DNA of 64,000 bases from an uncultured Paenibacillaceae bacterium (GTDB taxonomy: Bacteria; Bacillota; Bacilli; Paenibacillales; K13): positions 1 through 64,000 of the forward strand of contig CAJXLT010000008.1 of NCBI GenBank assembly GCA_913056365.1, in the 5' to 3' direction. Below the pieces are notes generated by a model. It saw only the letters and a program-made list of their open reading frames with translations, was not told the origin of the DNA and did no database searches. Shown here piece after piece: positions 2,347 through 20,367 of this stretch. A program made the position numbers and the translations under genes. Each line of letters starts with the position of its first letter. The stretch's first letter is position 1.

Positions 2347-2367
2347 AAATCGTAATAATTACTATTA
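2347..2367 (+). promoter_or_regulatory. Zur operator (zinc repression)
   Basis: This imperfect palindrome matches the Bacillus Zur box (half site AAATCGTAAT, one free base, then ATTACGATTT) at 18 of 20 defined positions. Only the right-arm G and the final T differ. It begins two bases after the -10 box and covers the expected start site, so a bound repressor would block initiation. Zinc-dependent repression is inferred from the match and from the genes it controls. Confidence 0.8.
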
Positions 2368-2425: not shown

Positions 2426-3316
2426 ATGAAACGAGAAATCGATTTTGTCAAATTCAATCCCACTCAAAACATGACCATACTTGTGAAAACCAATCATCCG
2501 GCTGATGAATATACACACATTGCTTCAAAGATGATGTCCTATGACAGTGTGTATGCTGAGCAAGTTGGTTTTATCGAACTGCCTCAGAACCATGAAGCTG
2601 ACGCACATCTGCAAATGGCTGCTGGCGAATTTTGTGGTAACGCATGCATGGCACTGGCTGCTTATATTGCATTTGAAAAGGGACTAAAGCATAATGGTCT
2701 GGCGGAAATTACGTTGGAAGCTTCGGGTTCGGATCATTTATTAACTTGCCAAGTGAAGAGAATACAGGATAAGTATTACTGTCAAGTCCCCATGCCTCTT
2801 CCTGTAAAAATTGAGCAGAGGTCAATAAAATTTGACGGTGATGAATTGGAACTGGTGTTTGTAAGATATCAACAGTGCATTCATATTGTGATGGAAGTGG
2901 AGCAATTGGATAATGTTGCGAAAGACCGAGCGCAAAACCTGGCAAAATTGCTAGGTGTCGTTCTGGAAGTAAACTTAGTCGGTATTTTGTTGTATAAGTC
3001 AGACACCAATGACTTGGCTCCTCTCATCTATGTTCCGTCACTGGACAGCATGGTATGGGAAAGAGGCTGTGGTTCGGGTACTGCATCCATTGGCGCTTAT
3101 CTGGTCTGGAAGCATAAAGAGGCAATTGAAGTACAAATCAAGCAACCCGGCGGTACGATTCATGTAGCTGCTGACTGCAATAAAGGAGAGATAAGTTACC
3201 TTCAAATCGAAGGACTTGTCGGAATTGTTGCACAAGGGAAAGCATTTATAGACATTGGTGATATCCATGATATTAGGGAGAAGGAGATTTCTATGGCATT
3301 GGGAGGTAGGGGATGA
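2426..3316 (+). CDS. cntK: CntK histidine racemase (opine metallophore synthesis)
   Basis: Two-cysteine cofactor-independent racemase of the DapF-like fold. In staphylopine synthesis CntK converts L- to D-histidine, the first precursor. The two catalytic cysteines lie in GEFCGNAC (Cys70) and ERGCGSGTAS (Cys215), close to the Cys72/Cys216 pair I recall for S. aureus CntK. The 296-aa length is slightly above the staphylococcal enzyme. ATG at 2426 is preferred over GTG at 2423 because AAGGG at 2413-2417 is then 8 nt away. It is the first gene of a collinear cntKLMABCDFE operon and overlaps cntL by ATGA. Being next to cntL and cntM argues against a diaminopimelate epimerase. Confidence 0.9.
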   Translation: MKREIDFVKFNPTQNMTILVKTNHPADEYTHIASKMMSYDSVYAEQVGFIELPQNHEADAHLQMAAGEFCGNACMALAAYIAFEKGLKHNGLAEITLEASGSDHLLTCQVKRIQDKYYCQVPMPLPVKIEQRSIKFDGDELELVFVRYQQCIHIVMEVEQLDNVAKDRAQNLAKLLGVVLEVNLVGILLYKSDTNDLAPLIYVPSLDSMVWERGCGSGTASIGAYLVWKHKEAIEVQIKQPGGTIHVAADCNKGEISYLQIEGLVGIVAQGKAFIDIGDIHDIREKEISMALGGRG

Positions 3317-4122
3317 ATACACTTGAACAGTTTCGAAAAGATATTACTGAATACTCCGTAAATTTTTGTAGATTGTCGGCACAATATGACCATACCATAG
3401 ATCATGTCGTGGAGATGGAGACGGTTATCGATGCCTATTCGAAATTCATAACGGATGCACGGAACAAGGATGTATGGGAGCAAATGGAGCTTGCGAAATC
3501 GGATGGATTTAACCGGATCGTTGAAGATGTCAGGAATTCATCTGCACAATGCGTTGCGATTATGGAAAAGTACCGTGCAATGAAGTTGCTAAATGGCGAT
3601 GCCGATAAAGCTGATTACTTCAACAATATAGAGTCATGTATCGAAAAAGAATTTGGGAGCTTCCGAATCACTTCGGATTCACAGGTTATCATGATTGGTT
3701 CGGGATCATTTCCGATGACGCCTATATTGATTGCCAAGCGAACAGGGGCACGCGTAGTGGGCATAGACATTGATGAGGAGGCCATACATCTTGGTCGACA
3801 AATTGTAGAAAGATTGGGGGACGGATTACGGATCCAACTGGAGAAAGTGTTCGTGGAACATCTAGACATGACGAAGGATGCGACGCATATCATATTTAGT
3901 TCGACGGTTGCCAATAAATATGACCTGCTGGATCAGTTGCATGCATTAACTAATGAACAAGTCGTCGTTGCGATGAGGTACGGTGACAAGTTGAAGTCGT
4001 TGTTTAATTACCCCATGAAACAGGTGGATGAGAGCAAATGGCGATTAGTTGAAACGGTATTGCGTCCCGATCATGTGTTTGATGTCGCGTTGTACGAGAA
4101 GACGCCGGTTGCATCTAGATAG
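3313..4122 (+). CDS. cntL: CntL, nicotianamine-synthase-like aminobutanoyltransferase
   Basis: Transfers an aminobutyrate unit from S-adenosylmethionine to histidine (D-histidine in systems with CntK), giving the NA-like intermediate. At 269 aa it is close to S. aureus CntL (about 271). A helical N-terminal half is followed by a Rossmann SAM-binding core: IGSGSFP at about 128-134, then the acidic strand end IDID at 151-154. It starts in the stop codon of cntK and lies 14 bp before cntM. A paralogue sits at 12192 with the same layout (IGSGALP, DID) but clearly diverged sequence. Whether it prefers D- or L-histidine cannot be read with confidence from the sequence. Confidence 0.9.
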   Translation: MNTLEQFRKDITEYSVNFCRLSAQYDHTIDHVVEMETVIDAYSKFITDARNKDVWEQMELAKSDGFNRIVEDVRNSSAQCVAIMEKYRAMKLLNGDADKADYFNNIESCIEKEFGSFRITSDSQVIMIGSGSFPMTPILIAKRTGARVVGIDIDEEAIHLGRQIVERLGDGLRIQLEKVFVEHLDMTKDATHIIFSSTVANKYDLLDQLHALTNEQVVVAMRYGDKLKSLFNYPMKQVDESKWRLVETVLRPDHVFDVALYEKTPVASR

Positions 4123-4136
4123 AGTAGGAGGGGGGA

Positions 4137-5474
4137 ATGAGCGATTTGAAGCGAGTTTTACTATTGGGCACGGGTCCTGTATCCATTCAAATGGCTAGTA
4201 TGCTGAAAAAACATTGGCATTGCTGCGTAGGTATCGTGGGGCGAGCGTCTGTTCGTTCTAAACCATTCTTTGCAGATCTGAAACAAAATGACTGTCGTAT
4301 TCGCGTAAGCATTCAAAATGAACAACATCGAAGGCTGGAGGGCAACTGCTTCATCGATCACGTTTTTCAAGGATATGGAACCGTTACAGGGGAATGGGAT
4401 ACCGTCATTGTCACTGTTACGACGGATGCATATATCGAGGTTTTGAAGCAAATCGATGAGCGGATTATGAGAAAAGTCAGGTGTGTCGTATTGATTTCTC
4501 CGACCTTCGGTTCGAATAGCTTGCTACGTCATTATATGAACGAAATTCAATCTGAAGCGGAGATTATAAGCTTCTCTACATATCTTGGCGATACGCGATG
4601 GATGCATGAACAGCCTTCCCATCATGTGGTGACAACAGGTGTTAAGAAGAAAGTGTTCGTTGGTTCGACGCACGTTCCATCGGACAATGTCAAGGCACTG
4701 TGCGAGTTATACGAACAATTGGGTATCGCCTTGGAAGTGATGAACTCTCCAATCGAGGCGGAGACGAGAAACATATCTTTGTACGTCCACCCGCCGTTGT
4801 TTATGAACGATTTTTCTCTGAACGTCATCTTCGGAGAGGTGGGGGCCAAGAAGTATGTATATAAAATGTTTCCTGAGGGGCCGATCACGCAGTATTTAAT
4901 TCGCGATATGCTGGCCGCATGGAGAGAGATTACGAGTGTAATTCAAAAATTAGAACTGACAGGCGTCAACCTGCTTAAGTTCATGACGGATGACAATTAT
5001 CCGGTGAGATTGGAAAGTTTGTCACGTGATGATATAGAAAACTTCAGTCATTTGGACAGCATTCATCAAGAGTATTTAGTGTACATCCGGTACACTTCAC
5101 TGTTGATCGATCCTTTTTCGGAACCAGATCAGGAAGGAAGATATTTCGACTTTTCCGCCGTCCCCATCCGGTCCATCTTTGTGAACAGTGAAGGCTACTG
5201 GGATATACCACGGATGCCCAAGGAAGATTACTACCGGATCAAAATCATACAGGGGATTGCCAATTACCTGGGGGCAAGCTGCCCGACCATCGATACATTC
5301 ATTACCGCTTATGAACGCAAATTGGATGAAACGGCACAAACGTTAAAGGGTGAGTTGGTGTCGAATGCATTCAAGGTACAAACGTTTGAAGAAGATTTGA
5401 AGATGATATGCAGTGAAATAGGCAAAAGCAGAGGAACAACGATGGTGAACACACACGAGGAGGATATGGCATGA
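4137..5474 (+). CDS. cntM: CntM opine dehydrogenase, pyruvate-type (Asp at specificity site)
   Basis: Reductively condenses the CntL product with a 2-oxo acid to finish the metallophore. The N-terminal NAD(P)H fold has GTGPVS at 11-16. Conserved blocks ISPTFGS, FSTYLGDTR, SPIEAETR and YVHPPLFMNDF run through the chain. Arg36 aligns with S. aureus Arg33, which favours NADPH. Asp152 (bases 4590-4592) aligns with S. aureus Asp150, the residue reported to restrict the enzyme to pyruvate. The predicted product with CntK and CntL is therefore staphylopine-like. Strong AGGAGGGG site before the ATG; the stop overlaps the cntA start. 445 aa. Confidence 0.92.
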   Translation: MSDLKRVLLLGTGPVSIQMASMLKKHWHCCVGIVGRASVRSKPFFADLKQNDCRIRVSIQNEQHRRLEGNCFIDHVFQGYGTVTGEWDTVIVTVTTDAYIEVLKQIDERIMRKVRCVVLISPTFGSNSLLRHYMNEIQSEAEIISFSTYLGDTRWMHEQPSHHVVTTGVKKKVFVGSTHVPSDNVKALCELYEQLGIALEVMNSPIEAETRNISLYVHPPLFMNDFSLNVIFGEVGAKKYVYKMFPEGPITQYLIRDMLAAWREITSVIQKLELTGVNLLKFMTDDNYPVRLESLSRDDIENFSHLDSIHQEYLVYIRYTSLLIDPFSEPDQEGRYFDFSAVPIRSIFVNSEGYWDIPRMPKEDYYRIKIIQGIANYLGASCPTIDTFITAYERKLDETAQTLKGELVSNAFKVQTFEEDLKMICSEIGKSRGTTMVNTHEEDMA

Positions 5475-7078
5475 CAGGAAGAATGGTTGTTTGGATGATT
5501 GTATTGTTGGGTTCCGTTGGGCTGCTGGCAAGCTGTGGTGGTGATCAAGCTGGAAATACGGGAGCAGCGGATCAAGACCAAGAGCTAGTGTACGCAACGG
5601 CGAAAGATACGAATGATATGAATCCACACTTTTATGCGGGCTCGATGCCGGCTCAAGGGATGGTCTACGAGTCATTGGTAGAAAATACGGAAGACGGGAT
5701 CAAGCCACTTCTAGCAGAATCATGGGAGATTTCCGAAGATGGGAAGGTATATACCTTCCATTTGAGACAAGATGTACAATTCCATGATGGGGAGCCCTTT
5801 AACGCTGAAGCAGTGAAGAAAAATATTGAAGCTGTGCAAAGTAACGCAAGCACGCATTCCTGGATTAAGCTATCGACGAAAATCGTAAGCTGCAATGTCA
5901 TAGATGCGTATACGATTGAACTCGTTCTATCTGAACCTTATTATCCGACTTTGCTAGAATTGTCGATGACTAGACCTTACGTATTCCTCTCACCTAAAGA
6001 TTTTGTTAACGGGGAGACCAAGGACGGCGTGAATGGCTACAATGGCACAGGTCCCTTCAAGCTCGCTGAGCAGAAAGTCGATCAGTACGCAATTTTTGAA
6101 GCCAATGAGACCTACTGGGGCGGCGCGCCAAGTCTGAAGAAGATTACGGCCAAAGTTCTACCGGCAGGGGAGACGACATATTTGGCGTTGCAAAAAGGTG
6201 AAGTCAACTTCTTATTTACGGATGACCGGGGCACGGACAGTCTGGATGTAGAAGCGATGAATAAACTGGTTGAATCGGGTGAATTTCAACTTGTTAGAAG
6301 CAAACCGATGAATACCAAAATGATCGTAGCCAATAGCAGCAAACTTGATAGTCCAGTGCACGAAACGGCTGTTCGCGAAGCAATCTGGCATGCCGTCGAC
6401 AGAGAAACGATTAGCCAACAAATTTATAACGGCACCGAAACAGCAGCCGACACCCTATTCTCGTCTAACGTCAATTACGCCAATGTTGACCTGATGAAAC
6501 GAAGCTATGACTTGGAAACAGCGAAGCAGATTTTGGATGAAGCAGGCTGGGTCTTGGACAATGGCGATGCAATCAGAACGAAGAACGGGAACAAGCTAGC
6601 CATGAAGCTATATTATGATACCCATTCTTCTTCCCAAAAAACGCAAGCTGAATTCCTTCAACATGCATGGAAAAGTATAGGCATGGAGGTAACGCTAATT
6701 GGTGAGGAATCCACTTCAATTGCGAATAGACGATCTACTGGCGAGTATGATTTATTATTCAACCAGACATGGGGACTTGCGTATGATCCACAAAGTACAG
6801 TCGCTGCATTCAGTTCCACGTCTTCTTATTACCATACGACCAGCGGCATAGAGAAAGCGGATGAGCTGTATAAGAAGATCGAACAGGTTATGGTTTCACA
6901 AGATGAAGAGACTCGGAAATCCTTGTATGCGGATATTATCAATATCGTTCATGAAGAAGCTGTCTTCATTCCCATTACGAATGGCAGTGTTACGGTTATA
7001 GCTTCTGCAGACCTGCAGGGCATCTCGTTCAAGCAAACACAATTTGAGCTGCCATTTGAACGCATGCAATTCGAATAA
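5471..7078 (+). CDS. cntA: CntA-like ABC substrate-binding lipoprotein, set 1
   Basis: Extracellular solute-binding protein of the nickel/peptide/opine family (SBP_bac_5), predicted to capture the metal-loaded opine for import. A short signal peptide ends in lipobox LLASC with Cys22 as the lipidated residue. The body shows family features such as AESWEISEDGKVYTFHLR and WGGAPSLKKI. At 535 aa it is near S. aureus CntA (about 532). ATG overlaps the cntM stop, preceded by GAGGAGG. A hairpin directly downstream (7084-7110) probably raises its expression above that of the permease genes. Confidence 0.88.
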   Translation: MTGRMVVWMIVLLGSVGLLASCGGDQAGNTGAADQDQELVYATAKDTNDMNPHFYAGSMPAQGMVYESLVENTEDGIKPLLAESWEISEDGKVYTFHLRQDVQFHDGEPFNAEAVKKNIEAVQSNASTHSWIKLSTKIVSCNVIDAYTIELVLSEPYYPTLLELSMTRPYVFLSPKDFVNGETKDGVNGYNGTGPFKLAEQKVDQYAIFEANETYWGGAPSLKKITAKVLPAGETTYLALQKGEVNFLFTDDRGTDSLDVEAMNKLVESGEFQLVRSKPMNTKMIVANSSKLDSPVHETAVREAIWHAVDRETISQQIYNGTETAADTLFSSNVNYANVDLMKRSYDLETAKQILDEAGWVLDNGDAIRTKNGNKLAMKLYYDTHSSSQKTQAEFLQHAWKSIGMEVTLIGEESTSIANRRSTGEYDLLFNQTWGLAYDPQSTVAAFSSTSSYYHTTSGIEKADELYKKIEQVMVSQDEETRKSLYADIINIVHEEAVFIPITNGSVTVIASADLQGISFKQTQFELPFERMQFE

Positions 7079-7083
7079 ATCAA

Positions 7084-7110
7084 TAAAAGGGGGCTTGAGT
7101 CCCCCTTTTA
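7084..7110 (+). terminator. intra-operon hairpin between cntA and cntB
   Basis: A perfect 10-bp stem (7084-7093 with 7101-7110) and a 7-nt loop sit in the only sizeable gap inside operon 1. The 3' arm ends in TTTTA. As a partial terminator or mRNA stabiliser it would give more binding protein than permease, a common arrangement in ABC import operons. Confidence 0.65.
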
Positions 7111-7136
7111 TGTAATGGGGAAGAAGGAGAATGCTT

Positions 7137-8069
7137 ATGGGGTTATATATCGTCAGGAAAGTATGCTTAACCGTTCCGCTGCTTATGGTCATTTCGTTTC
7201 TGACGTTTATACTGAACAATCTGTCTCCGATGGACCCGGCTGAAGTTGTATTACAAGCACAAGGCGTACCTGTAATCACGGATGAATTAATCGCGCAGAC
7301 GAGAGCGGAGCTCGGGATGGACCAGCCGTTCCTCATCCGGTATTTCCAATGGCTGATGGCATGCCTGCAGCTCGATTTCGGAGATTCCTATATCACAGGA
7401 GAACCTGTCTGGTCCTTGCTGGGACCTGCTTTTCTGAACACGTTAAAGCTTACGCTTGTGTCGATTATCGTTATTATCGGACTATCCATTGCGTTAGGCG
7501 TCATCTGCGCATTGAAGGAGGGCGGCCTACTGGATAAGTCGGTCAGGGGCGTGTCCTTCTTCCTGACTGCCATGCCGTCCTACCTGCTTGCAGGTCTGAT
7601 GACTTGGTATTTTTCTGTGAAGCTGGATTTGCTCCCGACAAGCGGGATGGACTCGTACAGGAGTTACCTATTACCTGTTACGGTAATTGCGGTTAGTTAT
7701 GTGGGCATTTACTTTCGAATCGTCAGAAGCTCGATGTTAAGTAATTTGAATGAAGATTACGTCCTGTACGGAAGGGCATGCGGCTTGCCTGAGAAGACGA
7801 TAACGCTGCATATATTAAGAAATTCATTGCAGGTTGCCATTTCAGTATTTGGCATGGCTATCCCCGTATTGCTTGGAAGCACAGTTGTCGTGGAAAGTGT
7901 GTTTGCTTGGCCGGGTCTGGGCACTTTAAGCGTGAAGTCGATTCTTAGCAGAGATTTCCCCATGATTCAAGCGTATGTCCTCATACTGGCCGTCGCTTTT
8001 GTTCTGTTCAACACCTTTTCCGACATGATGAACGCGGCGCTCAATCCGAAGCTAAGAAAGGACCTCTAA
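7137..8069 (+). CDS. cntB: CntB-like ABC permease, set 1
   Basis: First permease subunit of the dipeptide/nickel (DppB/NikB) type. An N-terminal membrane helix (CLTVPLLMVISFLTFIL) is followed by a short external segment, then the BPD_transp_1 core with about five more helices and the conserved C-terminal ending NAALNPKLRKDL. ATG at 7137 is chosen because AAGGAG at 7124-7129 leaves 7 nt; the in-frame ATG at 7131 would leave only one. It abuts cntC. It should form the importer with CntC, CntD and CntF. 310 aa. Confidence 0.88.
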   Translation: MGLYIVRKVCLTVPLLMVISFLTFILNNLSPMDPAEVVLQAQGVPVITDELIAQTRAELGMDQPFLIRYFQWLMACLQLDFGDSYITGEPVWSLLGPAFLNTLKLTLVSIIVIIGLSIALGVICALKEGGLLDKSVRGVSFFLTAMPSYLLAGLMTWYFSVKLDLLPTSGMDSYRSYLLPVTVIAVSYVGIYFRIVRSSMLSNLNEDYVLYGRACGLPEKTITLHILRNSLQVAISVFGMAIPVLLGSTVVVESVFAWPGLGTLSVKSILSRDFPMIQAYVLILAVAFVLFNTFSDMMNAALNPKLRKDL

Positions 8070-8963
8070 ATGGAATTATTGAAAAAGATCATGATGGACA
8101 AGTTGGCAGCCATTTCTTTATCCATCGTTGCGGTCACGATTGTTGTCGGGATATTCGCTCCATTGTTCGCGCCACACGACCCCTATGAGGTTCACATGGA
8201 GCTTCGTTACGCATCCCCCTCATGGGAGTATTTGCTTGGCAACGATCATCTGGGAAGATGCGTCTTATCCAGATTGATTTATGGCATTCGTCCCAGCGTG
8301 CTGTGGGTATTAGCCGCATTAGCTTTGTCAGTTGGAATTGGCGCGATTCTGGGGTTTATTGCCGGCTACTTCAGGGGGAAGACGGATGCTATTCTAATGA
8401 GAATTTGCGATGTGATGCTGTCCTTCCCTGGATATGTGATGACATTGGCGTTAATCGGTGTTTTGGGTGTCGGATTCGAGAATATATTGCTAGCATTCAT
8501 ATTGAGTAAATGGGCCTGGTTCGCCAGGGTTATCCGAACGGCTGTAATGCAGTATGCGGAATCCGAATATGTCAAGTACGCCAAAGCCATCGGTGTCAGC
8601 AACATGAAAATCATGGTTAAGCACATTGTGCCAGTATCCTTCTCCGATATTGTAGTGGTTGCCAGCAGCTCCTTCGGCGCTATGATTTTGCAAATTTCAG
8701 GATTTTCATTTCTGGGGCTAGGCATTCAAGCACCGCATGCGGAATGGGGCATGATGTTGAACGAAGCGCGGGAGGTCATGTTCTCGAGGCCGGAGCTCAT
8801 GCTAGCGCCTGGCTTAACGATTATTATTGTCGTGATGGCCCTTAATTTTGTGTCTGATGCGCTGCAAGTTGCGTTAGATCCTAAATTAATGAGCTCCCAA
8901 AACAAGTCTTACCGAAACGCAACAACCTCTGCAGGTAAGCTTCAAGGAAAAGAGGTGGCTTAA
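8070..8963 (+). CDS. cntC: CntC-like ABC permease, set 1
   Basis: Second permease subunit (DppC/NikC type, 297 aa). It has an N-terminal helix, the family stretch LLGNDHLGRCVLSRLIYGIR after about residue 55, and the EAA-loop region YVKYAKAIGVSNMKIMVKHI, which contacts the ATPases. The start follows the cntB stop without a gap. The C-terminal tail beyond LDPKLMSS is unusually polar and lies just before cntD. Confidence 0.88.
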   Translation: MELLKKIMMDKLAAISLSIVAVTIVVGIFAPLFAPHDPYEVHMELRYASPSWEYLLGNDHLGRCVLSRLIYGIRPSVLWVLAALALSVGIGAILGFIAGYFRGKTDAILMRICDVMLSFPGYVMTLALIGVLGVGFENILLAFILSKWAWFARVIRTAVMQYAESEYVKYAKAIGVSNMKIMVKHIVPVSFSDIVVVASSSFGAMILQISGFSFLGLGIQAPHAEWGMMLNEAREVMFSRPELMLAPGLTIIIVVMALNFVSDALQVALDPKLMSSQNKSYRNATTSAGKLQGKEVA

Positions 8964-8965
8964 TC

Positions 8966-9790
8966 ATGGACCATCTATTAGAGGTTTCAAATTTGAAAAT
9001 TTGGGATAGCAGCACCGGCAAGGTGATTGTGCCGAATAGTTCCTTTCACGTCAAGCAAGGAAGCTGTCTGGCCATTGTAGGAGAAAGCGGCAGCGGGAAA
9101 TCTGTAACCTGCAAAGCCGTGATGAAATTGAATAAAGCAGGCATTCGCCAAGCAGGAGACATCTTGTTCAAGGGAGAGAACCTGAGCGATCTTTCAGAAA
9201 AAGATATGAGGAAGAAGAGAGGAAAACAGCTGTGTATGATTTTGCAAAACGGTATGCGCGCCTTTGATCCCTCCTGTGTGGTAGGTACTCACTTCCTGCA
9301 GATGCTGGCCGTACATTTTGATTGGAGTCGCGACGAGATGACGACCAAGCTGAAGCATGCGATGGAATGCGTAATGCTGAAGGAGCCGCTCGCGGTGATG
9401 AACCAATATCCACATCAATTATCGGGCGGCATGCTGCAGCGGCTCATGATAGCGTTGGCCATCGTACTAGAGCCTGACATCATTATCGCGGATGAGCCGA
9501 CAACAGCGCTCGACACCATCTCGCAGTATGAAGTTGTGGAACAATTTATCCGATTGCGGGAAAGAATGGGATGTTCGATGATCTTTGTTTCACATGATTT
9601 GGGAGTCGTGAAGAAAATAGCGGATGAGGTTCTGGTCATGAAAGACGGGATCATTGTGGAAAAAGGGACGACACGCGCCATCTTCTCTGGGGCTCAGCAT
9701 GAATATACCCGTTACTTAGTATCTACGAAGCTTGCGCTGAGTCATCATTTTGAGCAAATCATGGGAGGCGTTAGCGTTGCTGAGCGTTGA
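8966..9790 (+). CDS. cntD: CntD-like ABC ATPase, set 1
   Basis: Oligopeptide/nickel-type ATPase, 274 aa. Walker A GESGSGKS at 39-46, a signature motif in the variant form LSGGMLQR (normally LSGGQ), Walker B IIIADEPTTALD and the H-loop SHDLGVVK. The C-terminal portion is short for the DppD family. It begins two bases after cntC and overlaps the next ATPase gene by 14 bp, which suggests coupled translation of the two ATPases. Confidence 0.88.
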   Translation: MDHLLEVSNLKIWDSSTGKVIVPNSSFHVKQGSCLAIVGESGSGKSVTCKAVMKLNKAGIRQAGDILFKGENLSDLSEKDMRKKRGKQLCMILQNGMRAFDPSCVVGTHFLQMLAVHFDWSRDEMTTKLKHAMECVMLKEPLAVMNQYPHQLSGGMLQRLMIALAIVLEPDIIIADEPTTALDTISQYEVVEQFIRLRERMGCSMIFVSHDLGVVKKIADEVLVMKDGIIVEKGTTRAIFSGAQHEYTRYLVSTKLALSHHFEQIMGGVSVAER

Positions 9791-10520
9791 TCATGTTGAG
9801 AAATTTTATAGAAAAGGCGGAATGTTCTCCGGGGAAAGGCAGCATGTGTTGAAAAACATTAGTTTTGCCTGCAAGCAAGGGGAAAGTCTCGGCATTATCG
9901 GGGAAAGCGGCAGTGGTAAATCCACGTTGGGGCGCTTGTTATTAGGCATTGAAAAACCGGATCATGGAACGATCTTATTTGAGGAACAGCGTGTACAAAA
10001 TCGCAGAACGAGATTAGGAAATATCAGTGCCGTATTTCAAGACTACACTTCCTCCATCAATCCGTTCTACACCGTGGAACAGGCTGTTATGGAGCCCTTG
10101 AAGTTGCAAATGAAAGTGCCAGAGGATAGAAAAAGCAAGTTGGTGACGCTACTACATCAAGTAGGATTAGACTCGTCCTATCTCAAGAAATATCCGCATG
10201 AGTTGTCAGGAGGGGAGGCACAGCGGGTATGCATAGCAAGAGCCGTAGCAACCGAACCGAAATGCATATTATTTGATGAGGCAATCAGCTCATTGGATGG
10301 ATCCGTTCAAATTCAGGTGCTTGAGTTGTTGAAGAGCTTGCGAAACATTTATAACATGGGGTATATCTTCATCACCCATGATATTCAAGCTGCGGCTTAT
10401 ATTTGCGACAAAGTCATGATCATTCGAAGCGGTCAGATCGAAGAGATGGTCGATGTCGAACATCTTAAGGACGTTCAGTCCGCCTATGCTAAGAAGTTGT
10501 TGCAGATGATCATATCTTAA
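9777..10520 (+). CDS. cntF: CntF-like ABC ATPase, set 1
   Basis: Second ATPase (DppF/NikE type), about 247 aa. Walker A GESGSGKST, signature LSGGEAQR, a Walker B ending in FDEAISSLD (DEA instead of the usual DEP) and the H-loop THDIQA. The start is set at TTG 9777: GGGAGG at 9763-9768 is 8 nt upstream, and the product then begins at the conserved first strand (LSVDHVEKFY). Pairs with CntD under the CntBC permease. Confidence 0.85.
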   Translation: MLSVDHVEKFYRKGGMFSGERQHVLKNISFACKQGESLGIIGESGSGKSTLGRLLLGIEKPDHGTILFEEQRVQNRRTRLGNISAVFQDYTSSINPFYTVEQAVMEPLKLQMKVPEDRKSKLVTLLHQVGLDSSYLKKYPHELSGGEAQRVCIARAVATEPKCILFDEAISSLDGSVQIQVLELLKSLRNIYNMGYIFITHDIQAAAYICDKVMIIRSGQIEEMVDVEHLKDVQSAYAKKLLQMIIS

Positions 10521-10560
10521 CTAAACGATAGGAACATTGGGAGTGGAGGGAGCAAGTGTT

Positions 10561-11748
10561 GTGAGAGGAGCTCTGTCTTGGCCTTTTTTGCGGCTATATG
10601 TATTGACTTTTTCATATTTTAGCGCCAATGCGATCCTGAACGTGGTGATTCCTTTGAGGGGGGATTCGTTAGGCGCTACGAATACAACGATCGGGATAAT
10701 TATGGGCGCTTACTTATTTACGACCATGTTCTTTCGACCGTGGGCCGGACAATTGATTCAGAAGCATGGGCCGATCAAGGTGCTGCGCGCCATACTTATT
10801 ATCAATGGAGTGGCTTTAATTCTATACACGTTTACCGGGTTAGGGGGATATTTCGTTGCCCGCGTCTTGCAAGGCGTATGTACCGCCTTTTTCTCTATGG
10901 CATTGCAGCTCGGCATTATTGATGCGCTGCCGGACAAGGATCGTTCGCAAGGGATATCGATGTATACTTTATGTGCGTATATGCCAGGAATTATCGGTCC
11001 ATTGCTTGCCTTAGGCATTTGGCAAGCTGGGGATACACATGTTTTTACAGTGGTTATGGTCGTACTTGCCCTCTTTACAGGGTTGGTTGGCTACAGCGCT
11101 AAGATGGATAATAAAGAAGCGGAAACTGCTCCGGCACAGACAGAGCAGGGTGCAACGATAAGGAAGTCTTTCAGCCAATTGATCAAAAACCCTTACTTAT
11201 TTAAGTGCAGTGTTCTGATGCTGGCGGCTTCTGCCGTATTCGGCGCAGTGACAACCTTTATTCCGCTATATGCTTCACAAATCGAAAGTGGCAACGCGGG
11301 GATTTATCTCATGCTACAGGCAGGTACTGTAGTATTGGTACGGTTTCTATTAAGGAAGAAAATCCCTTCTGATGGCAAATGGCATGCCACTTTTGTTGTA
11401 GGGATCATGCTCATGCTGGCAGTAGCGGCGCAAAGTGTAAGTTTTGCCATCGTGGGCGGAGCAGCTTTTTTCTATGTAGGCGCTGTATTGATGGGAGCCG
11501 CTCAGGCACTCCTTTACCCAACGTTGACAACGTATTTGACCTTTGTATTGCCGAAGACGAATCGCAACGTGTTACTTGGATTGTTCATCGCGATGGCTGA
11601 TTTAGGCGTTTCCCTGGGTGGTGTCGTGATGGGCCCTGTTGCAGATCTCTCCTCTTACTCTTCTATGTTTACGATGTGTGCGATTCTGGGTGCGGTCATG
11701 ATTATCTTTGCCTTTGATCGACGGAAGATTCCGATGGGATCAGGATAA
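10561..11748 (+). CDS. cntE: CntE-like MFS exporter (predicted opine efflux)
   Basis: Twelve-helix major facilitator protein, about 395 aa, with the typical break between halves near the TEQGATIRKSF loop. The last gene of the S. aureus cnt operon, cntE, is also an MFS exporter that releases staphylopine. The identical position here supports that role, although MFS substrate cannot be read from sequence. GTG 10561 is chosen because GGAGGG ends 10 nt upstream; TTG at 10537 has a poorer site. It closes operon 1. A Zur-like box begins 8 bp after its stop codon. Confidence 0.78.
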   Translation: MRGALSWPFLRLYVLTFSYFSANAILNVVIPLRGDSLGATNTTIGIIMGAYLFTTMFFRPWAGQLIQKHGPIKVLRAILIINGVALILYTFTGLGGYFVARVLQGVCTAFFSMALQLGIIDALPDKDRSQGISMYTLCAYMPGIIGPLLALGIWQAGDTHVFTVVMVVLALFTGLVGYSAKMDNKEAETAPAQTEQGATIRKSFSQLIKNPYLFKCSVLMLAASAVFGAVTTFIPLYASQIESGNAGIYLMLQAGTVVLVRFLLRKKIPSDGKWHATFVVGIMLMLAVAAQSVSFAIVGGAAFFYVGAVLMGAAQALLYPTLTTYLTFVLPKTNRNVLLGLFIAMADLGVSLGGVVMGPVADLSSYSSMFTMCAILGAVMIIFAFDRRKIPMGSG

Positions 11749-11755
11749 CGGATAA

Positions 11756-11776
11756 GAATCGTTATTATTACTACTT
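11756..11776 (+). promoter_or_regulatory. second Zur-like palindrome
   Basis: Matches the Zur box at 16 of 20 defined positions. The core of the left arm (AATCG) and the central ATTAC are intact; mismatches are at positions 1, 8, 17 and 19. It lies 8 bp after the stop of the MFS gene and about 415 bp before cntL2. No good -10 precedes it, so it may control a promoter overlapping the end of the MFS gene, or be a remnant of an operon duplication. Confidence 0.5.
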
Positions 11777-12008
11777 TATCCTCACCAGAAATATTAGCCA
11801 AGCAGCTGGCGCATCGCTGTCAAGACAGAATTGCTGGCCGAATCGCAAGCAGTCGATTTCTTTTAGGACAAATCACGTTTCAGTGAAGGGATAGATGGGG
11901 CAATAGTGGTTGCCAATATGGTTAAAAACATTGCTTTCTGTCACAAGAAGCAAAGCGAAGCTGGACCTCACTCCTTCATAGTATGAAGTAATGCTATATG
12001 ATGTACTC

Positions 12009-12050
12009 AAGACGGCACCTCTGGACTAACCAGAATGACCGTCTTTTCTT
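12009..12050 (+). terminator. terminator or attenuator before metallophore operon 2
   Basis: Outer arms AAGACGG (12009-12015) and CCGTCTT (12039-12045) enclose an inner TCTGG/CCAGA hairpin, with TTTTCTT after it. It could end read-through from operon 1, or attenuate a long leader if transcription starts at the Zur-like site. Confidence 0.65.
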
Positions 12051-12191
12051 GTATGACGGGAATATTGATCATTAGGGGCTATTTATAATTTATCACTTTT
12101 ATGTAATACTGTGATTGAAAATTGAAATAGATAGGAGGGATATCAACCCGGATTCAGCGGTCAGTACTTTATAACAAAGGAGGGATAGTTA

Positions 12192-13007
12192 GTGAAAGGC
12201 AAGTATGCATTAATGCTTGCATTGCAAACGTACAATTACGAACTTACTTTATTAAACAACTACGTACAACAATGCTCAGAGTGCTTTGAGCTCTTACAGG
12301 CTAAGCTGGATGCCCTGTGTCGTTATATTGTGTACGAAGGCAATCATAGCATCTGGGACGAGTGGGGACATCTCCAAGAAATTGATGCGCTTGGCAACCA
12401 ACTTCGCATTACAAGCAATCAGGCACTTTGTAGTTTGGAGAAGTTTCAGTGTCAGAGGCTGCTTGAGCAGCAAGACAGTATGAGCGAATATTTGGCGAGG
12501 CTGTCTGCGGAAGTGAAACAAGAAATTCCGAAATTTCATCTTCAGTCCAATTCGCGCATCTTATTTATTGGATCCGGCGCACTCCCAATTTCCCCTTTGA
12601 TTCTTTGCCGTGAGACGGGTGCTGAGGTATTGTGTGTGGATATTGACCGGGAAGCGGTATATTTCGGTACCAGGATTGCAGAGTCACTGGGCATGCACAA
12701 GAAGGTCCGGTTTATCGGAACCTATGAAGAGGGATTGGATTACATTCGACAAGCGACGCATATTTTTATTGCCTCTCTGGTAGAAGGAAAAGTTGAGCTG
12801 CTGGAAATGCTGAAGTCCGAACTCCCCGGGGATGCCATTGTTGTATTAAGATATGGAAACGGTTTAAAATCACTATTTAATTACCCATTTGAACAAAACA
12901 TGGCGACTGGGTGGAAGATGACTCCTTTAATCAGACAGGATAGCTTTTACGATACGGCGATTCTTACATTCAGGTCTAGCCTTGTGGAAGAGGTGTATGA
13001 CAGGTGA
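12192..13007 (+). CDS. cntL: second CntL, nicotianamine-synthase-like enzyme
   Basis: Paralogue of the gene at 3313 with the same length (271 aa) and domain plan. The SAM-binding segment is FIGSGALP at 126-133 and the acidic strand end is DID at 150-152. The shared C-terminal block (RYGNGLKSLFNYPF versus RYGDKLKSLFNYPM) identifies it firmly. GTG start with AAAGGAGGG 8-10 nt upstream; the stop overlaps the GTG of cntM2. This set has no cntK, so it either shares the D-histidine made by the upstream CntK or uses L-histidine, as the Pseudomonas enzyme does. Confidence 0.88.
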   Translation: MKGKYALMLALQTYNYELTLLNNYVQQCSECFELLQAKLDALCRYIVYEGNHSIWDEWGHLQEIDALGNQLRITSNQALCSLEKFQCQRLLEQQDSMSEYLARLSAEVKQEIPKFHLQSNSRILFIGSGALPISPLILCRETGAEVLCVDIDREAVYFGTRIAESLGMHKKVRFIGTYEEGLDYIRQATHIFIASLVEGKVELLEMLKSELPGDAIVVLRYGNGLKSLFNYPFEQNMATGWKMTPLIRQDSFYDTAILTFRSSLVEEVYDR

Positions 13008-14323
13008 GGAATGAATCCGATGCAGCTCCCTTTGGTCATACCTTAATCATCGGAGCAGGACCAGCCGGTATTCATGCAGTAGTAAACTGGAGTGGCGCCT
13101 CTACTTGTATAGGTTTGTTGAACCGAAAGGGAGAACATGCACAAAAGGTGAAAAAAATGTTGGAAGAAGCCTCCTACCGGGTAAAATGTGATGTTTTTGT
13201 TTCAGGTAAGGAGGGGTTGTCCGGATCGGCAACGATTGATCACTATTACGAAGGCTACCAAGAGTTGGAGGATAGTTGGGATACGGTTTTGATCTGTACG
13301 CCGTGCGATAGTTATGCGAGCGTCTTAGCTGAATTGCAGGTGGAGAAGCTGCGGAAGGTGAAGCAACTGATCTTGATTTCACCGGGAATAGGTTCCAATG
13401 CCTGGGTTCAAAGTCTGTTGGGAGAGGAATGCAAACGGATAGAGGTAGTCAGCTTCTCCACTTATTATGCCGCTTCCAAATTCATAAATCTTCAAGCTCC
13501 TCTCACATCGGTGGTCAAAGGGTTGAAACGGAAGATTAGAATCGCTTCCAACCGATCAGATCAGACCATATGCCCGCCTATTCAAAAGCTGATGGAAACT
13601 ATGGGGATTGCCTGCGAGATTGTGGAATCGCCGATAGAAGCGGAAAGTTACAGCATTACGACTTATGTACATCCTCCGTTATTCATGAATGAGTTTGCAC
13701 TGAACGAAATTTTCTCCCAAACCACATCGAGAAAGTACATGTACAAACTGTATCCAGAAGGCCCTATTACGCCGGGTGTCATCAAGAGTATGGTCCTGTT
13801 GTGGAAGGAAGTCTCGCAAGTCCTTCAACAGCTTGGTGTCCCACCTATCAATTTATTGGAATTCCTTAATGACGATAATTATCCTGTTCTTGAACAAAGT
13901 ATCAGTAGAGAGGAGATTGAGAGCTTTCCGGCTATGGACCCGGTCAGGCAAGAGTATCTGTTGTATGTCAGATACAGCTCACTTCTCATTGATCCTTATT
14001 CTTCACCGGATGAGCAAGGGAAGTATTTTGAATTCTCAGCTGTTCCGTTCAAACAGGTGGTACGGAATCATAACGACTATTGGCAGCTTCCGCGTGTCCC
14101 TCATGAAGATTACTGCAAGTTGAACGTATTGTACGAAATGGGACGTCAGCTGAATGTGCCGATGCCTCAGTCCCGCTGCTTGATCGAGCAGTATAGAAAC
14201 AAGGTGTTCTCCTTTATGGAGCAATACGGAACCGAACAGTTGCATCCAGGATGGGAGCACGAGCATATAGTAGAACAAGCCTTTGCTATTTTGCAGGCGA
14301 TGAAGATCAATGTCCGTAGCTGA
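13004..14323 (+). CDS. cntM: second CntM opine dehydrogenase, 2-oxoglutarate-type (Ala at specificity site)
   Basis: 439-aa opine dehydrogenase of the same family. NAD(P)H loop GAGPAG at 17-22; Arg41 aligns with S. aureus Arg33 (NADPH preference). Blocks ISPGIGSN, SPIEAESY and YVHPPLFMNEF are kept. Ala157 (bases 13472-13474), within FSTYYAASK, replaces the Asp of pyruvate-specific enzymes. In published work Ala here permits 2-oxoglutarate, as in the pseudopaline and bacillopaline enzymes. The product is therefore predicted to be bacillopaline-like with D-His, or pseudopaline-like with L-His. GTG start overlaps the cntL2 stop. Confidence 0.9.
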   Translation: MRNESDAAPFGHTLIIGAGPAGIHAVVNWSGASTCIGLLNRKGEHAQKVKKMLEEASYRVKCDVFVSGKEGLSGSATIDHYYEGYQELEDSWDTVLICTPCDSYASVLAELQVEKLRKVKQLILISPGIGSNAWVQSLLGEECKRIEVVSFSTYYAASKFINLQAPLTSVVKGLKRKIRIASNRSDQTICPPIQKLMETMGIACEIVESPIEAESYSITTYVHPPLFMNEFALNEIFSQTTSRKYMYKLYPEGPITPGVIKSMVLLWKEVSQVLQQLGVPPINLLEFLNDDNYPVLEQSISREEIESFPAMDPVRQEYLLYVRYSSLLIDPYSSPDEQGKYFEFSAVPFKQVVRNHNDYWQLPRVPHEDYCKLNVLYEMGRQLNVPMPQSRCLIEQYRNKVFSFMEQYGTEQLHPGWEHEHIVEQAFAILQAMKINVRS

Positions 14324-14391
14324 TCGGAATCCTAAGGCAACATATATGTTGAAACAGAGTGATGCAAATGAAAGGAGGATCAGATTATAAC

Positions 14392-15987
14392 ATGTTTGGT
14401 AAGCGCTATCATAAAACTGTCAGTGTGAGTTGGATTGTACTCGTATTTGTCCTGATCATGACAGGATGCATGCCGGATGATAAGCGAGCGAATCAGACAC
14501 AGTCGTCTGCTGCTGGGACTGGGCAGGATGAGTCAAGCGACAGCAAGGCGGTAACCATTATCCACAGTCTCCCAGTCGATACCCTCGATCCTCATCTCGG
14601 CTGGATTGCGCTCCGGGCTGGAGTTACAGAAACACTGCTGCGTCTGGACGACAATATGCAGGTTACTCCCTGGTTGGCAAGCAAATGGGAAGCCAAGGAT
14701 CCGGTGACATGGGTATTCACGCTGCGGGACAATATCAGCTTCCAGGATGGAACGAAGCTGGATGCCGCCGCGGCAAAGGCTTCATTCGAGAGAGGCATTG
14801 CCGACAGTAAGGCGCTAGCGGCTTCGTTGAAAATCGCTTCCATTGAAGCAAATGGCCAAGAGCTTACGTTTACGACGAAGGAGCCGCATCCGGCGTTTCC
14901 GAACGAGCTTGTTCACCCGACAGCCAGCATCATAAGTGTTGCTGCTGAAGAGGCCATGAGCAAGGAGGCTTTCAATCAATCTCCGGTTGGCACTGGACCA
15001 TTTAAGGTGACGGCATTCGTTCCCGGCAAAGAGATTACACTCGTTCGCCATGATAGCTATTGGGATGAGTTGGCCAAATTGACGGATGTCACGATTCAGT
15101 TTAATGCCGATGCCAACGTCAGGACACTGGCTTACCAGTCTAAGCAAGCGGACATCGTGTATCATCTGGCCCCGGAATCGCTTGAACGAATCGAGAAGGA
15201 CGAAGAACTGACCGTACAGTCTGTTACGAGCCTGCGTACTCATTATTTCACTTATAATCCAGCCAGCACGAATGTTGCAGATCTCCGTGTGAGGCAGGCT
15301 TTAGATAAACTGATTGATCGCGAAGCGATTGTGAAGGAGATTATGCTCGGCCACGCCATGCCAGCTAACGGCCCGTTCAATGCTACGCTGCCGTTCGGCA
15401 ATAAGGACGCTGCTCAAATGCTGGATCAAGCTGGGACCTTGAAGCTGCTTGAAAGTGTCGGCTATACGAAAGGTGCAACAGGCAAGCTGGAGAAGGACGG
15501 CAAGCCGCTTGTGCTCAAGCTGATTGCGTTCAGCGGCATTAACCCTGAGCTTCCACTTATTCCGCTGTTGCTTCAATCTGAAGCGGCCAAGGTAGGCATT
15601 ACAATTGAGATCGTTTCGGTGGAATATCCCGGTGAATACATTAAGAACCATACCGATTGGGACCTATCGACAGCGAGTTATCTTACTTCCCCTCGCGGTG
15701 ACGGAGGTTCGTTCCTTCATTCGGCTTATGTCCCTGGAGGGGCCTACAATCCGACCAATATTCATATCAATAATTTGGAACCTATTCTCAAGGAATTGAA
15801 CAAAACCGGCGACGTTGCAAAACGCCATGCATTAACCCGTCATGCAGTTGAAGTCATACAGGAAGCGATGCCGCATTCCTATATTGTTCATCCCAACATA
15901 TTAGTGGGCATTCATCAACGAGTGAGTAATTGGAAGCCGGGGGCAGAAGAATTTTATATTGTGACGAACAAAATGGATGTGAAGTAG
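14392..15987 (+). CDS. cntA: CntA-like ABC substrate-binding lipoprotein, set 2
   Basis: SBP_bac_5 family lipoprotein, 531 aa, strongly diverged from the copy at 5471. Signal peptide with basic start (FGKRYHK), a hydrophobic stretch and lipobox IMTGC (Cys26). The following Ser/Gln/Gly-rich linker is typical for a lipid-tethered protein. Predicted to bind the metal complex of the second opine. ATG 14392 gives a standard signal peptide, but GGAGG at 14374-14378 is then 13 nt away; the in-frame ATG at 14365 is the alternative. Lies 68 bp after cntM2. Confidence 0.85.
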   Translation: MFGKRYHKTVSVSWIVLVFVLIMTGCMPDDKRANQTQSSAAGTGQDESSDSKAVTIIHSLPVDTLDPHLGWIALRAGVTETLLRLDDNMQVTPWLASKWEAKDPVTWVFTLRDNISFQDGTKLDAAAAKASFERGIADSKALAASLKIASIEANGQELTFTTKEPHPAFPNELVHPTASIISVAAEEAMSKEAFNQSPVGTGPFKVTAFVPGKEITLVRHDSYWDELAKLTDVTIQFNADANVRTLAYQSKQADIVYHLAPESLERIEKDEELTVQSVTSLRTHYFTYNPASTNVADLRVRQALDKLIDREAIVKEIMLGHAMPANGPFNATLPFGNKDAAQMLDQAGTLKLLESVGYTKGATGKLEKDGKPLVLKLIAFSGINPELPLIPLLLQSEAAKVGITIEIVSVEYPGEYIKNHTDWDLSTASYLTSPRGDGGSFLHSAYVPGGAYNPTNIHINNLEPILKELNKTGDVAKRHALTRHAVEVIQEAMPHSYIVHPNILVGIHQRVSNWKPGAEEFYIVTNKMDVK

Positions 15988-15988
15988 C

Positions 15989-16933
15989 ATGCTCACGCAA
16001 TGGTTAACCCGCTTTGTCCAACTGGTCATCGTGTTGTTATTCTTAAGTGTCGTCACATTTGTTCTGCTGAAGCTGGCTCCGGGCGATCCGGTGCTGGCTA
16101 TCATACGCGCGAGCGACGGTGCGTTGTCGCAGGCCGATCAGGAAGTGGTACGCGAGTCGCTTGGACTGAGTCGTCCTCTCTACGAACAGTATGGAAGCTG
16201 GTTGCTCCACGTTGTACAGCTTGATTGGGGGCAATCCCTGACAAGCAATCGGGAAGTCTGGGACATCTTGATTGAGCGTCTGCCTGCAACGGTGTATTTG
16301 GCTCTTGGCGCGATCGTTGTGCTCATTGTCATTGCCTTCCCGCTTGGTGTATTGGCTGCGACATATCATAACAAAGCACCCGATGCGTTGAGTCGGATGA
16401 TCGCGCTGCTCGGCGCATCCGTGCCCAGCTTTTGGCTTGGCTTGATACTCATTTATGTATTTGCCTATCAGCTCAACTGGCTACCTACATTGGGAAGCGG
16501 AAGTCTTCGACACCTCGTCTTGCCTTCCTTGACGCTTGGATTCGTCATGGCTCCGGAATACATTCGATTATTGCGCGCCGGTCTGTTAGAGACGTTCTCA
16601 CACGATTATATCAAGGCAGCACGGGCAAGAGGAATTTCCGAATGGCGCATTATGTTTCGGCATGCGATACGTGCGGCCTTGCTGCCCATTGTTGCGGTAT
16701 CCGGGATCAGTCTTGGCGCATTGCTGGCTGGTTCCGTCGTTACGGAATCCATATTCGGTTGGCCGGGACTAGGCAGCATGGCGATCGAAGCGATCCGGCT
16801 GCGTGACTATCCGGTAGTGCAAGGATACGTTATGTTCTGTGGCGTATGTTTTATAGCGGCCAACTGGCTTTCGGATGCCGGTACGGCTGCGCTGGACCCT
16901 CGTATTCGAATGCGAAAGGGACGGCGGGTATGA
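15989..16933 (+). CDS. cntB: CntB-like ABC permease, set 2
   Basis: DppB/NikB-type permease subunit, 314 aa. N-terminal helix LVIVLLFLSVVTFVLLKLAPGDP, a typical start of this family; the EAA-loop segment YIKAARARGISEWRIMFRHA; ending TAALDPRIRMRKGRRV. The start is one base after the cntA2 stop; the stop overlaps cntC2 by ATGA. Confidence 0.87.
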   Translation: MLTQWLTRFVQLVIVLLFLSVVTFVLLKLAPGDPVLAIIRASDGALSQADQEVVRESLGLSRPLYEQYGSWLLHVVQLDWGQSLTSNREVWDILIERLPATVYLALGAIVVLIVIAFPLGVLAATYHNKAPDALSRMIALLGASVPSFWLGLILIYVFAYQLNWLPTLGSGSLRHLVLPSLTLGFVMAPEYIRLLRAGLLETFSHDYIKAARARGISEWRIMFRHAIRAALLPIVAVSGISLGALLAGSVVTESIFGWPGLGSMAIEAIRLRDYPVVQGYVMFCGVCFIAANWLSDAGTAALDPRIRMRKGRRV

Positions 16934-17754
16934 AGATACCACTGTTTATCTTCATGGGCATGGTCCTATATGGTTTCTTTCTTATCTTAGCCTTTACGGG
17001 CTCCTGGCTTGCACCAAACGACCCGTTGCTCATTCAAATGTCGGAGCGCTTGCAGCCTCCAAGCTTTACGTATCCTTTGGGTACGGATCATCTAGGTCGC
17101 TGTATATTGTCTAGGATAATGGCTGGTACACATACAACGTTAGGACTTTCAACTGCGGTAATTGTTGCGGTTGCGGTTATTGGCGTTCCAATTGGATTCT
17201 TATCGGGCTATAAGGGAGGACGCATAGATGCTTGGCTCATGCGAGTAGCCGATGGCGCGGGTGCATTGCCCGAGTTTTTGGTTGCGGTGGCGGTTGCAGG
17301 TTTCCTAGGGCCGGGACTATGGAATGTCTTGCTGGCCATAGCTTGTGTGAAATGGATTGCTTACGCTCGGATTGTCCGAGGTGTAGTTCAGACTGAACGT
17401 GAGAAAGAGTATGTTCTTGCTTCTATTGTATCTGGGAGTTCCGGCTGGACCATCATACGGCGACATCTGCTTCGGCAAGCTGCGTCTCCCCTGGCTATTC
17501 TGGTTGCTGGTGACATCGGAAGAACCATTCTGCTCTTATCGGCACTATCCTACCTCGGCTTGGGGGCACAGCCTCCTGCTCCGGAATGGGGAGCCATGCT
17601 GAATGACGGCCGTCCGTATTTTCAGGCGGCCCCTGCACTCATGCTATATCCGGGGCTTTGCATTTTATTGGTCGTCTTGGCTTGCAACATGGTAAGTGAT
17701 GGTTTGAGGGATACACTTGATGTGCGAAGTAAGCAGCGGGGGATTGAAATTTGA
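16930..17754 (+). CDS. cntC: CntC-like ABC permease, set 2
   Basis: DppC/NikC-type permease subunit, 274 aa. First helix after MKIPL, then the family stretch YPLGTDHLGRCILSRIMAG, a core with four or five helices, and ending DTLDVRSK. ATG 16930 overlaps the cntB2 stop; an upstream in-frame start at 16846 would lie deep inside cntB2 and is rejected. Confidence 0.87.
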   Translation: MKIPLFIFMGMVLYGFFLILAFTGSWLAPNDPLLIQMSERLQPPSFTYPLGTDHLGRCILSRIMAGTHTTLGLSTAVIVAVAVIGVPIGFLSGYKGGRIDAWLMRVADGAGALPEFLVAVAVAGFLGPGLWNVLLAIACVKWIAYARIVRGVVQTEREKEYVLASIVSGSSGWTIIRRHLLRQAASPLAILVAGDIGRTILLLSALSYLGLGAQPPAPEWGAMLNDGRPYFQAAPALMLYPGLCILLVVLACNMVSDGLRDTLDVRSKQRGIEI

Positions 17755-17772
17755 AAGCGAGGTGTTGGCGAT

Positions 17773-18672: not shown

Positions 18673-19444
18673 GTGCATGCAGGTAAGGCATCTGTCGAAG
18701 CATTATGCGCGAGGCGGTAAGCATGTAATTGCGGTTGATCATGTGTCTTTTACGATCCGTCAGGGAGAATGCGTTGGTCTGGTCGGGGAGAGCGGCAGTG
18801 GCAAGAGCACGTTGGTTCGTCTGCTTCTTGCACTTGAACATCCGGATCAAGGAGAAATTCTCTTCCAGGACATGTCTTTGACACGCACGAACAGACGAGT
18901 GCTTCGGCAGCTTAGGCAGCACATTCAGGTAGTGTTTCAGGATTCTACCGCTTCGCTTAATGATCGCCTTCCGGTTTGGCGTTCCGTGCTGGAACCATTG
19001 GACAATTACGCACATGTCATACCTGTTTTTTTTCGAGGAGTGGTATTATCCAGAAGGGAACAAGCGGAGCGACTGTTGAACATAGTAGGACTGGCTCGCG
19101 AACACATGGACCGATACCCTCACGAGCTGAGCGGAGGGCAGAGGCAGCGTGTCTGTATAGCCCGCGGCATCAGCCTATGCCCGCAATTGCTTATTTGCGA
19201 TGAACCTACCTCTAGTCTAGATGTTACAACTCAGAGTCAAATCTTGCGTTTGTTGCAAAGCTTGCGGCGACAATTGAACATGTCCGTGCTGTTCATTTCT
19301 CACGATCTTGCTGCTGTGGCCCAGCTTTGCCATCGCATGCTCGTCATGCAACAAGGACGTATTGTGGATGCATGTAAGGTAGACGAGCTTTGGCTTGCTG
19401 AGCGTCATCCCTATACGAAGGTTCTGGTTTCGGCTGCACGATAG
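18665..19444 (+). CDS. cntF: CntF-like ABC ATPase, set 2
   Basis: Second ATPase of set 2, 259 aa. Walker A GESGSGKST, signature LSGGQRQR, Walker B LLICDEPTSSLD, H-loop SHDLAAVAQ. Completes the second opine importer. Unlike its set-1 counterpart it keeps the canonical signature and Walker B sequences. Confidence 0.87.
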   Translation: MSECMQVRHLSKHYARGGKHVIAVDHVSFTIRQGECVGLVGESGSGKSTLVRLLLALEHPDQGEILFQDMSLTRTNRRVLRQLRQHIQVVFQDSTASLNDRLPVWRSVLEPLDNYAHVIPVFFRGVVLSRREQAERLLNIVGLAREHMDRYPHELSGGQRQRVCIARGISLCPQLLICDEPTSSLDVTTQSQILRLLQSLRRQLNMSVLFISHDLAAVAQLCHRMLVMQQGRIVDACKVDELWLAERHPYTKVLVSAAR

Positions 19445-20357: not shown

Positions 20358-20367
20358 AAGGAGGAAG

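Follow-up and report, generated by a model that had tools for sequence, protein, structure and literature searches.

Two complete opine metallophore operons lie side by side in the genome of an uncultured Paenibacillaceae bacterium, and our preferred reading, which we hold with a probability of roughly 0.55, is that they provide two such metallophores on separate controls, zinc for one and probably copper for the other. This reading is built on the gene content, on the residues of the enzymes, on the absence of CntK in relatives that have only the second type of system, and on the operators that the relatives share, all of them features that can be read directly from the window (the whole stretch analyzed, 64,000 nucleotides, part of contig 8 of a 4.65-Mb genome) and from the genomes compared with it. 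Opine metallophores have so far been read as zinc systems. If our reading is true, a chemistry that combines the absence of D-His, the use of 2-oxoglutarate, and methylation would have been recruited, together with its control, for another metal; the residue rule used to classify the CntM enzymes would then become the testable question of why one cell makes two such molecules, and the finding directs attention to named environmental species in which both systems occur, such as P. taiwanensis and P. chitinolyticus. The chemistry was already expected from published rules. What is new is the copper link, as the passages of the literature searched nowhere describe an opine metallophore regulated together with copper or nos genes, subscription journals lying mostly outside that search.

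Gene Content of the Two Operons

Operon 1 (2426-11748) is complete, with the order cntK-cntL-cntM-cntA-BCDF-MFS, and comprises the following genes:

2426-3316, forward strand: cntK, histidine racemase, with the FCGNA and GCGSGT cysteine motifs both present; NCBIfam match below the cut-off
3313-4122, forward strand: cntL1, match to the NCBIfam model below the cut-off
4137-5474, forward strand: cntM1, intact open reading frame, Asp152 codon at 4590-4592, PF10100 match of 694.9 bits
5471-7078, forward strand: cntA1, staphylopine-type binding protein, above the NCBIfam cut-off
7131-10520, forward strand: cntB, C, D, and F importer genes, open reading frames whose order is kept in relatives
10537-11748, forward strand: cntE-type MFS exporter, above the NCBIfam cut-off

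The features of a staphylopine-type cluster, namely cntK, cntL, cntM, an Opp-type importer, and an MFS exporter, together with an Asp at the position of residue 150 of S. aureus CntM (hereafter position 150), are all found in operon 1 as in S. aureus cnt, and the likeness extends to the CntA and CntE models, both exceeded, and to a Zur-box-like site. Unlike in S. aureus cnt, CntK, CntL, and CntM match the corresponding NCBIfam equivalog models below their cut-offs, and the identity of CntM1 to SaODH, counted over superposed residues, is 44-45%. In our reading, CntK would racemize His to D-His, CntL1 would then add aminobutyrate, and CntM1, with its Asp152, would reductively join pyruvate; the staphylopine-type product would leave through the MFS pump and return through the CntA-type importer, with the operon repressed by Zur when zinc is ample. 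The contig begins with 17 tRNA genes (238-2029), which stand directly upstream of operon 1.

Operon 2 (12192-21051), likewise complete, runs cntL-cntM-NikA-like receptor-permeases/ATPases-EamA-methyltransferase, without cntK:

12192-13007, forward strand: cntL2
13004-14323, forward strand: cntM2, intact open reading frame, Ala157 codon at 13472-13474, PF10100 match of 486.6 bits
14359-15987, forward strand: receptor of the Opp5A/NikA class, above the cut-off of the nickel-binding Opp5A model
15989-19444, forward strand: permease and ATPase genes, four open reading frames
19488-20357, forward strand: EamA exporter
20368-21051, forward strand: class I methyltransferase, which closes operon 2

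Here the marks of a pseudopaline-type system are found, with Ala at position 150 and an EamA exporter; no racemase gene is present in the operon, the genome having its CntK in operon 1. Operon 2 thereby resembles the pseudopaline system of P. aeruginosa (no racemase, Ala at position 150, EamA exporter, and a CntM2 that superposes best on PaODH), from which it differs by its Opp-type importer and its extra methyltransferase. The methyltransferase-bearing relatives of operon 2 also have no Zur box and share an operator with copper genes, whereas PaCnt is described as Zur-controlled in the passages available from PMC5719457. From its gene content, operon 2 may belong to the Cluster 5 zincophore loci, which, in the excerpts at hand from Morey and Kehl-Fie (2020, PMC7438024), are likewise found in Bacilli with an EamA exporter and an Opp importer; six of them have a methyltransferase and two have Ser at position 150, but those excerpts describe neither two complete clusters per genome nor a control shared with copper genes. 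The same excerpts give Ala at position 150 for the bacillopaline system of P. mucilaginosus, which, unlike operon 2, has a racemase and uses D-His. In the window, CntL2 would work from L-His, and CntM2 (Ala157) would join 2-oxoglutarate to give a pseudopaline-type product, probably methylated by the enzyme of the last gene, as the presence of a methyltransferase gene in the operon suggests, exported through EamA, and taken up through the NikA-like receptor.

A Probable Control Site Shared with Copper-Delivery Genes in Relatives

The relatives of CntM1 and CntM2 are hereafter called type I and type II. Upstream of cntL, the exact inverted repeat WATRRCY-N6-RGYYATW is present in all 12 distinct type-II operons with a methyltransferase (window excluded) and in none of the 59 distinct type-II operons without one, two of which (L062 and L241) match it with one mismatch; in 1,848,583 bases of type-I regions, it occurs exactly once. 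The consensus, WATRRCYN6RGYYATW, was written after nine of the 12 sites had been seen, the hold-outs being L215, itself a close relation of one of those nine, and the pair L221 and L259, likewise close to each other. The overlapping loci L046 and L049, along with 12 named loci that duplicated G-handle loci, had been left out of the count beforehand; 64 rows without a methyltransferase became 59 upon removal of five repeats (L229 twice, L231, and L232 twice, which duplicate L048, L051, and L045), and loci without a recognized cntL2 (e.g., L217, L253, L278, L280, L282, L284, and L286) have no row.

An exact palindrome, TATAGC-N8-GCTATA, was tried as a general operator and given up for the broader consensus, as it missed G001, G388, and the window's own genome (G000); in G388, another half-site, AATGAC, is found at both operon 2 and the nos genes. 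Searched forward through ten genomes, the exact palindrome occurs 11 times versus 12 for the reversed control, and a related pattern at one mismatch 27 times versus 82, that is, more rarely than its control, so that the evidence for the operator is positional, not numerical. Only the operon 2 sites of G052 and G085 were used from the one-mismatch palindrome hits; those at L187 (inside a gene) and L188 (near unrelated genes) were set aside.

The corresponding site of the window is as follows:

12064-12083, forward strand: operator-like inverted repeat before operon 2, two mismatches to the family consensus

It has the position of the exact site in the same-genus genome G001, which has no Zur box. 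Taken alone it is weak, because the upstream region of operon 1 in the window and five of the 64 rows without a methyltransferase also reach the operator at two mismatches or fewer.

The repeat of the relatives' operon 2 also stands before copper-related genes in their genomes. NosL was found in 8 of the 11 genomes searched, and in all eight genomes with both a methyltransferase-bearing operon 2 and NosL, the operator of operon 2 also precedes the nos genes, with no mismatch in seven of them and one in G001. Among the sites are those upstream of nosD-nosL in G028 and G349; in G307, the repeat is also upstream of a ytkA gene. Judged by eye, some 20-22 bases separate the nosD-nosL and ytkA repeats from a -10-like hexamer that follows them, a spacing also seen at operon 2. 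When the pairing of sites within genomes was shuffled, 3 of 120 permutations did as well as the own-site pairing, a modest result obtained on five lineages with sites chosen by the analyst. In G300 and G307, a single same-strand run leads from a small lipoprotein gene through nosD, nosL, nosY, an ATPase gene, a thioredoxin-like gene, a histidine kinase, and a LuxR-type regulator into operon 2; the small gene falls below the YtkA cut-off in G307, and its counterpart in G388 has no Pfam hit. In the passages available from these sources, NosL is described as a copper chaperone required under copper limitation (PMC7558416), and CtaK, a lipoprotein of the YtkA type, is implicated in CuA assembly (PMC13344008).

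NosL is absent from the window's own genome, where a kinase match scoring 462 bits (from C1:1007481 on) is found beside PepSY_TM and YtkA genes. A genus-specific pattern combining the window site and a G001 site gives three exact hits in this genome: the operon 2 site (by construction), C6:219475-219494, and C1:1007354-1007373, the last of which lies in the gap between the kinase match and the PepSY_TM-YtkA genes. With one site at this gap and a weak site in the window, there is moderate evidence that the window's operon 2 would belong to the same regulon as those of its relatives.

Operon 2 comes from a Paenibacillus branch in whose promoter the inverted repeat of copper-delivery genes takes the place of a Zur box, and we propose, as the account that assumes least, that one regulator, whose identity and sign of action we infer along with the working of the window's weak site, would control both operon 2 and copper-enzyme maturation. 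One candidate for this role is the linked pair of a histidine kinase and a LuxR-type response regulator; the pair may not be the regulator, because G052 and G085, where the operator is present, have only distant kinase matches (E about 1e-58) and kinases of this family are common, with 350 of 392 genomes matching at E 1e-45 or better. In G028 (C1:3338700-3339530) and G349 (C2:445209-446039), a further, weaker kinase match stands some 11-14 kb away from operon 2. The copper repressor YcnK was dropped as a candidate regulator, the literature passages at hand giving no operator for comparison.

More tentatively than the two separate controls themselves, we suggest that operon 2 may stand for a family of opine-type chalkophores, that is, a methylated metallophore derived from L-His and 2-oxoglutarate, made at copper shortage under a dedicated regulator shared with copper-enzyme maturation, beside an independent Zur-controlled zinc system in the same cell. 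The likeness to chalkophores such as methanobactin would be one of proposed role only, as a metallophore for copper shortage, whereas the genes and chemistry are unrelated; staphylopine is named only a potential chalkophore in the passages available from a review (PMC7558416).

Counted against the preferred reading are a Zur-like site about 420 bp before cntL2, the nickel-annotated class of the receptor, and the lack of an own NosL. The receptor annotation keeps a nickel or broad role alive. It would indeed suit a pseudopaline-type product of operon 2 destined for nickel or several metals, with the shared operator answering to a broader signal than copper, such as respiration or oxygen: the receptor exceeds the cut-off of a nickel-binding model, its best solved relatives are annotated as nickel-binding, the staphylopine system is described as moving several metals (PMC9598555, in the passages available), and the kinase and nos genes could equally answer to respiration. 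We nonetheless consider this account unlikely, as the operator is common to the NosD/NosL and YtkA genes, which the literature passages tie to copper delivery.

The CntM Enzymes and Their Predicted Substrates

CntM1 and CntM2 are the only matches of the PF10100 profile (Staph_opine_DH) in the whole genome. The earlier note had claimed that they differ at the residue selecting the 2-oxo acid, in an interval (4590-13474) that runs from the first base of the Asp152 codon to the last base of the Ala157 codon, and this difference holds: Asp152 and Ala157 share one column of a MAFFT alignment, that of position 150, within a motif that aligns without gaps to those of the enzymes of solved structure (FSTYLGDTR in S. 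aureus, LSSYYADTK in Yersinia, and LSSYYAATK in Pseudomonas). In the AlphaFold models (mean pLDDT 80.8 for CntM1 and 85.9 for CntM2), the two residues are each the second of the same strand, which spans 151-155 in CntM1 and 156-160 in CntM2. The difference is not due to chance, since position 150 is D in 94 and A in 4 of the 98 type-I relatives fetched, and A in 18 and S in 3 of the 21 distinct type-II proteins (23 rows with two repeats). The arginine linked to NADPH use, also said to be kept in both enzymes, is indeed found in one MAFFT column (R36 in CntM1, R41 in CntM2); as an R stands there in every row of both types (98 of 98 for type I, 23 of 23 for type II), it does not discriminate between the types, and P. 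aeruginosa CntM has a His there. For CntM2, the best superposition is with pseudopaline dehydrogenase (6c4n, Z 50.1, rmsd 1.9, 418 residues), versus a Z of 43.9 with staphylopine dehydrogenase, and CntM1 superposes best on the latter (6gmz, Z 42.6, rmsd 3.1, 418 residues), with the Yersinia (Z 41.0) and Pseudomonas (Z 39.9) enzymes close behind.

The rule attached to position 150 reportedly originates from the 2019 work of Laffont et al. As given in the passages available from PMC7438024, the published two-rule scheme links Asp at this position to pyruvate and Ala to 2-oxoglutarate, and thus predicts the expected chemistry, with CntM1 a pyruvate user and CntM2 a 2-oxoglutarate user. Position 150 is not a full determinant, because the equivalent change in S. 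aureus CntM led to a similar preference for both oxo acids (same passages). The earlier interpretation was thus right about the residue difference and its published prediction, but it overlooked what mainly separates the two systems: the absence of CntK, the exporters, the receptors, the methyltransferase, and, apparently, the control.

A CntK profile search of 30 genomes gave eight with a match, two of which were type-I controls. Exactly one CntK is present in each of the six genomes that have one CntM of each type (hereafter dual genomes), and none was detected in the 14 genomes with type-II CntM only. CntK is absent from all of the latter, suggesting that type-II CntM systems need no D-His, and L-His is predicted as the CntL2 substrate on the basis of this absence and of the published rule; D-His would also be present in a dual cell. 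CntL positions were considered as determinants of the racemase-linked and racemase-free states and rejected, as many differ and no residue for D-His or L-His could be named. The type-I CntLs without CntK (G029 and G222) mostly retain the racemase-type residues, so that the CntL split follows descent. The usual pairing is broken in L135 (G029), where a type-I-branch CntM has Ala at position 150 beside an MFS gene; the whole genome of G029 gave no CntK match.

That the two CntM enzymes would differ little in the cell and yield mixed products, the residue being indecisive and D-His, L-His, and both intermediates sharing one cytoplasm, we hold to be improbable: the change made in S. aureus CntM and the presence of both CntL enzymes in one cell would permit such mixing, but in the type-II family the residue changes in step with the lack of CntK and with the closest characterized relative.

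Zur-Like Sites

Two Zur-like sites lie near the operons:

2350-2364, forward strand: Zur-box-like site before operon 1, one mismatch, just 3' of a TATAAT hexamer
11759-11773, forward strand: weaker Zur-like site, two mismatches, about 420 bp upstream of cntL2

Operon 1 looks zinc-controlled, to judge from this first site and from its relatives, as a Zur-like box with at most two mismatches lies upstream of cntK in 80 of 96 type-I operons, versus 0.5% for shuffles. Among type-II operons, a Zur box is found in 0 of the 12 with a methyltransferase (window excluded) and in 29 of the 59 distinct ones without; among the loci lacking both are those of Vibrio, Serratia, Yersinia, and Clostridium. The exporter, the methyltransferase, and the control site seem to change as a set, because the three methyltransferase-free rows in the tree group of CntM2 have MFS exporters and Zur-like boxes. 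Over the whole window, six Zur-like matches with at most three mismatches were observed versus 2.83 expected, and a third site, with two mismatches, lies at 59816. Least probable of the alternatives is that both operons respond to zinc through Zur, the relatives' operator having decayed here, which the sites at 2350 and 11759 and the two mismatches of the own operator-like site would fit, but against which stand the distance of the 11759 site from cntL2, the occurrence of such sites elsewhere in the window (59816), the exact operator without a Zur box in G001, and the matching site at the kinase-ytkA gap of the own genome.

Descent and Frequency of the Two Types

A recent duplication of one CntM is ruled out, as CntM1 and CntM2 are only 35% identical (CntL1 and CntL2, 27%) and fall into different starred groups of a tree of 119 CntM rows, for which 33 of the 98 type-I loci were chosen. 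The group of CntM1 has 32 rows, mostly from racemase-plus-MFS operons; that of CntM2 has 16, of which 13 come with a methyltransferase and EamA and three with MFS and no methyltransferase. In G001, which has a single CntM, operon 2 and its downstream genes are colinear with the window. The G+C content is 45.7% in operon 1, 49.5% in operon 2, and 49.3% in the rest of the window. These observations fit an older operon 2 next to which operon 1 was acquired later; loss of operon 1 in G001 is an alternative that they also allow. The 16 kb of G001 reaching to its cntL2 contain no tRNA gene, versus the 17 before operon 1 in the window.

Sampling of the order covered 392 genomes, of which 120 gave a PF10100 match, and six of these 120 (the window's own, G028, G052, G085, G307, and G349) have one full-length CntM of each type, fragmentary matches (G170, G197, G390, G366, G108, G155, and G376) being left uncounted as copies. 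This combination is thus uncommon yet recurrent. All six dual genomes have Asp in their type-I CntM; their type-II CntM has Ala in five cases and Ser in the sixth. The CntM genes of G052 and G085 are separated by 17-20 kb and stand in the order opposite to that of the window. Two more genomes of the 120, G242 and G285, have two type-II CntM, in two type-II operons in tandem (L048 and L045, respectively).

Other combinations occur among the loci. Ser at position 150 is found in the methyltransferase-bearing operons L059, L061, L063, and L215, one of them in the dual genome G307. The operons L159, L163, L252, and L258, which form one starred group and of which L258 appears to repeat L163, combine CntK with an EamA exporter and with Ala at position 150. 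Finally, the Vibrio CntM of L278, L280, and L282 have Thr at position 150 and lack a recognized cntL alongside, matching the orphan Vibrio CntM2 described in the passages available from PMC7438024.
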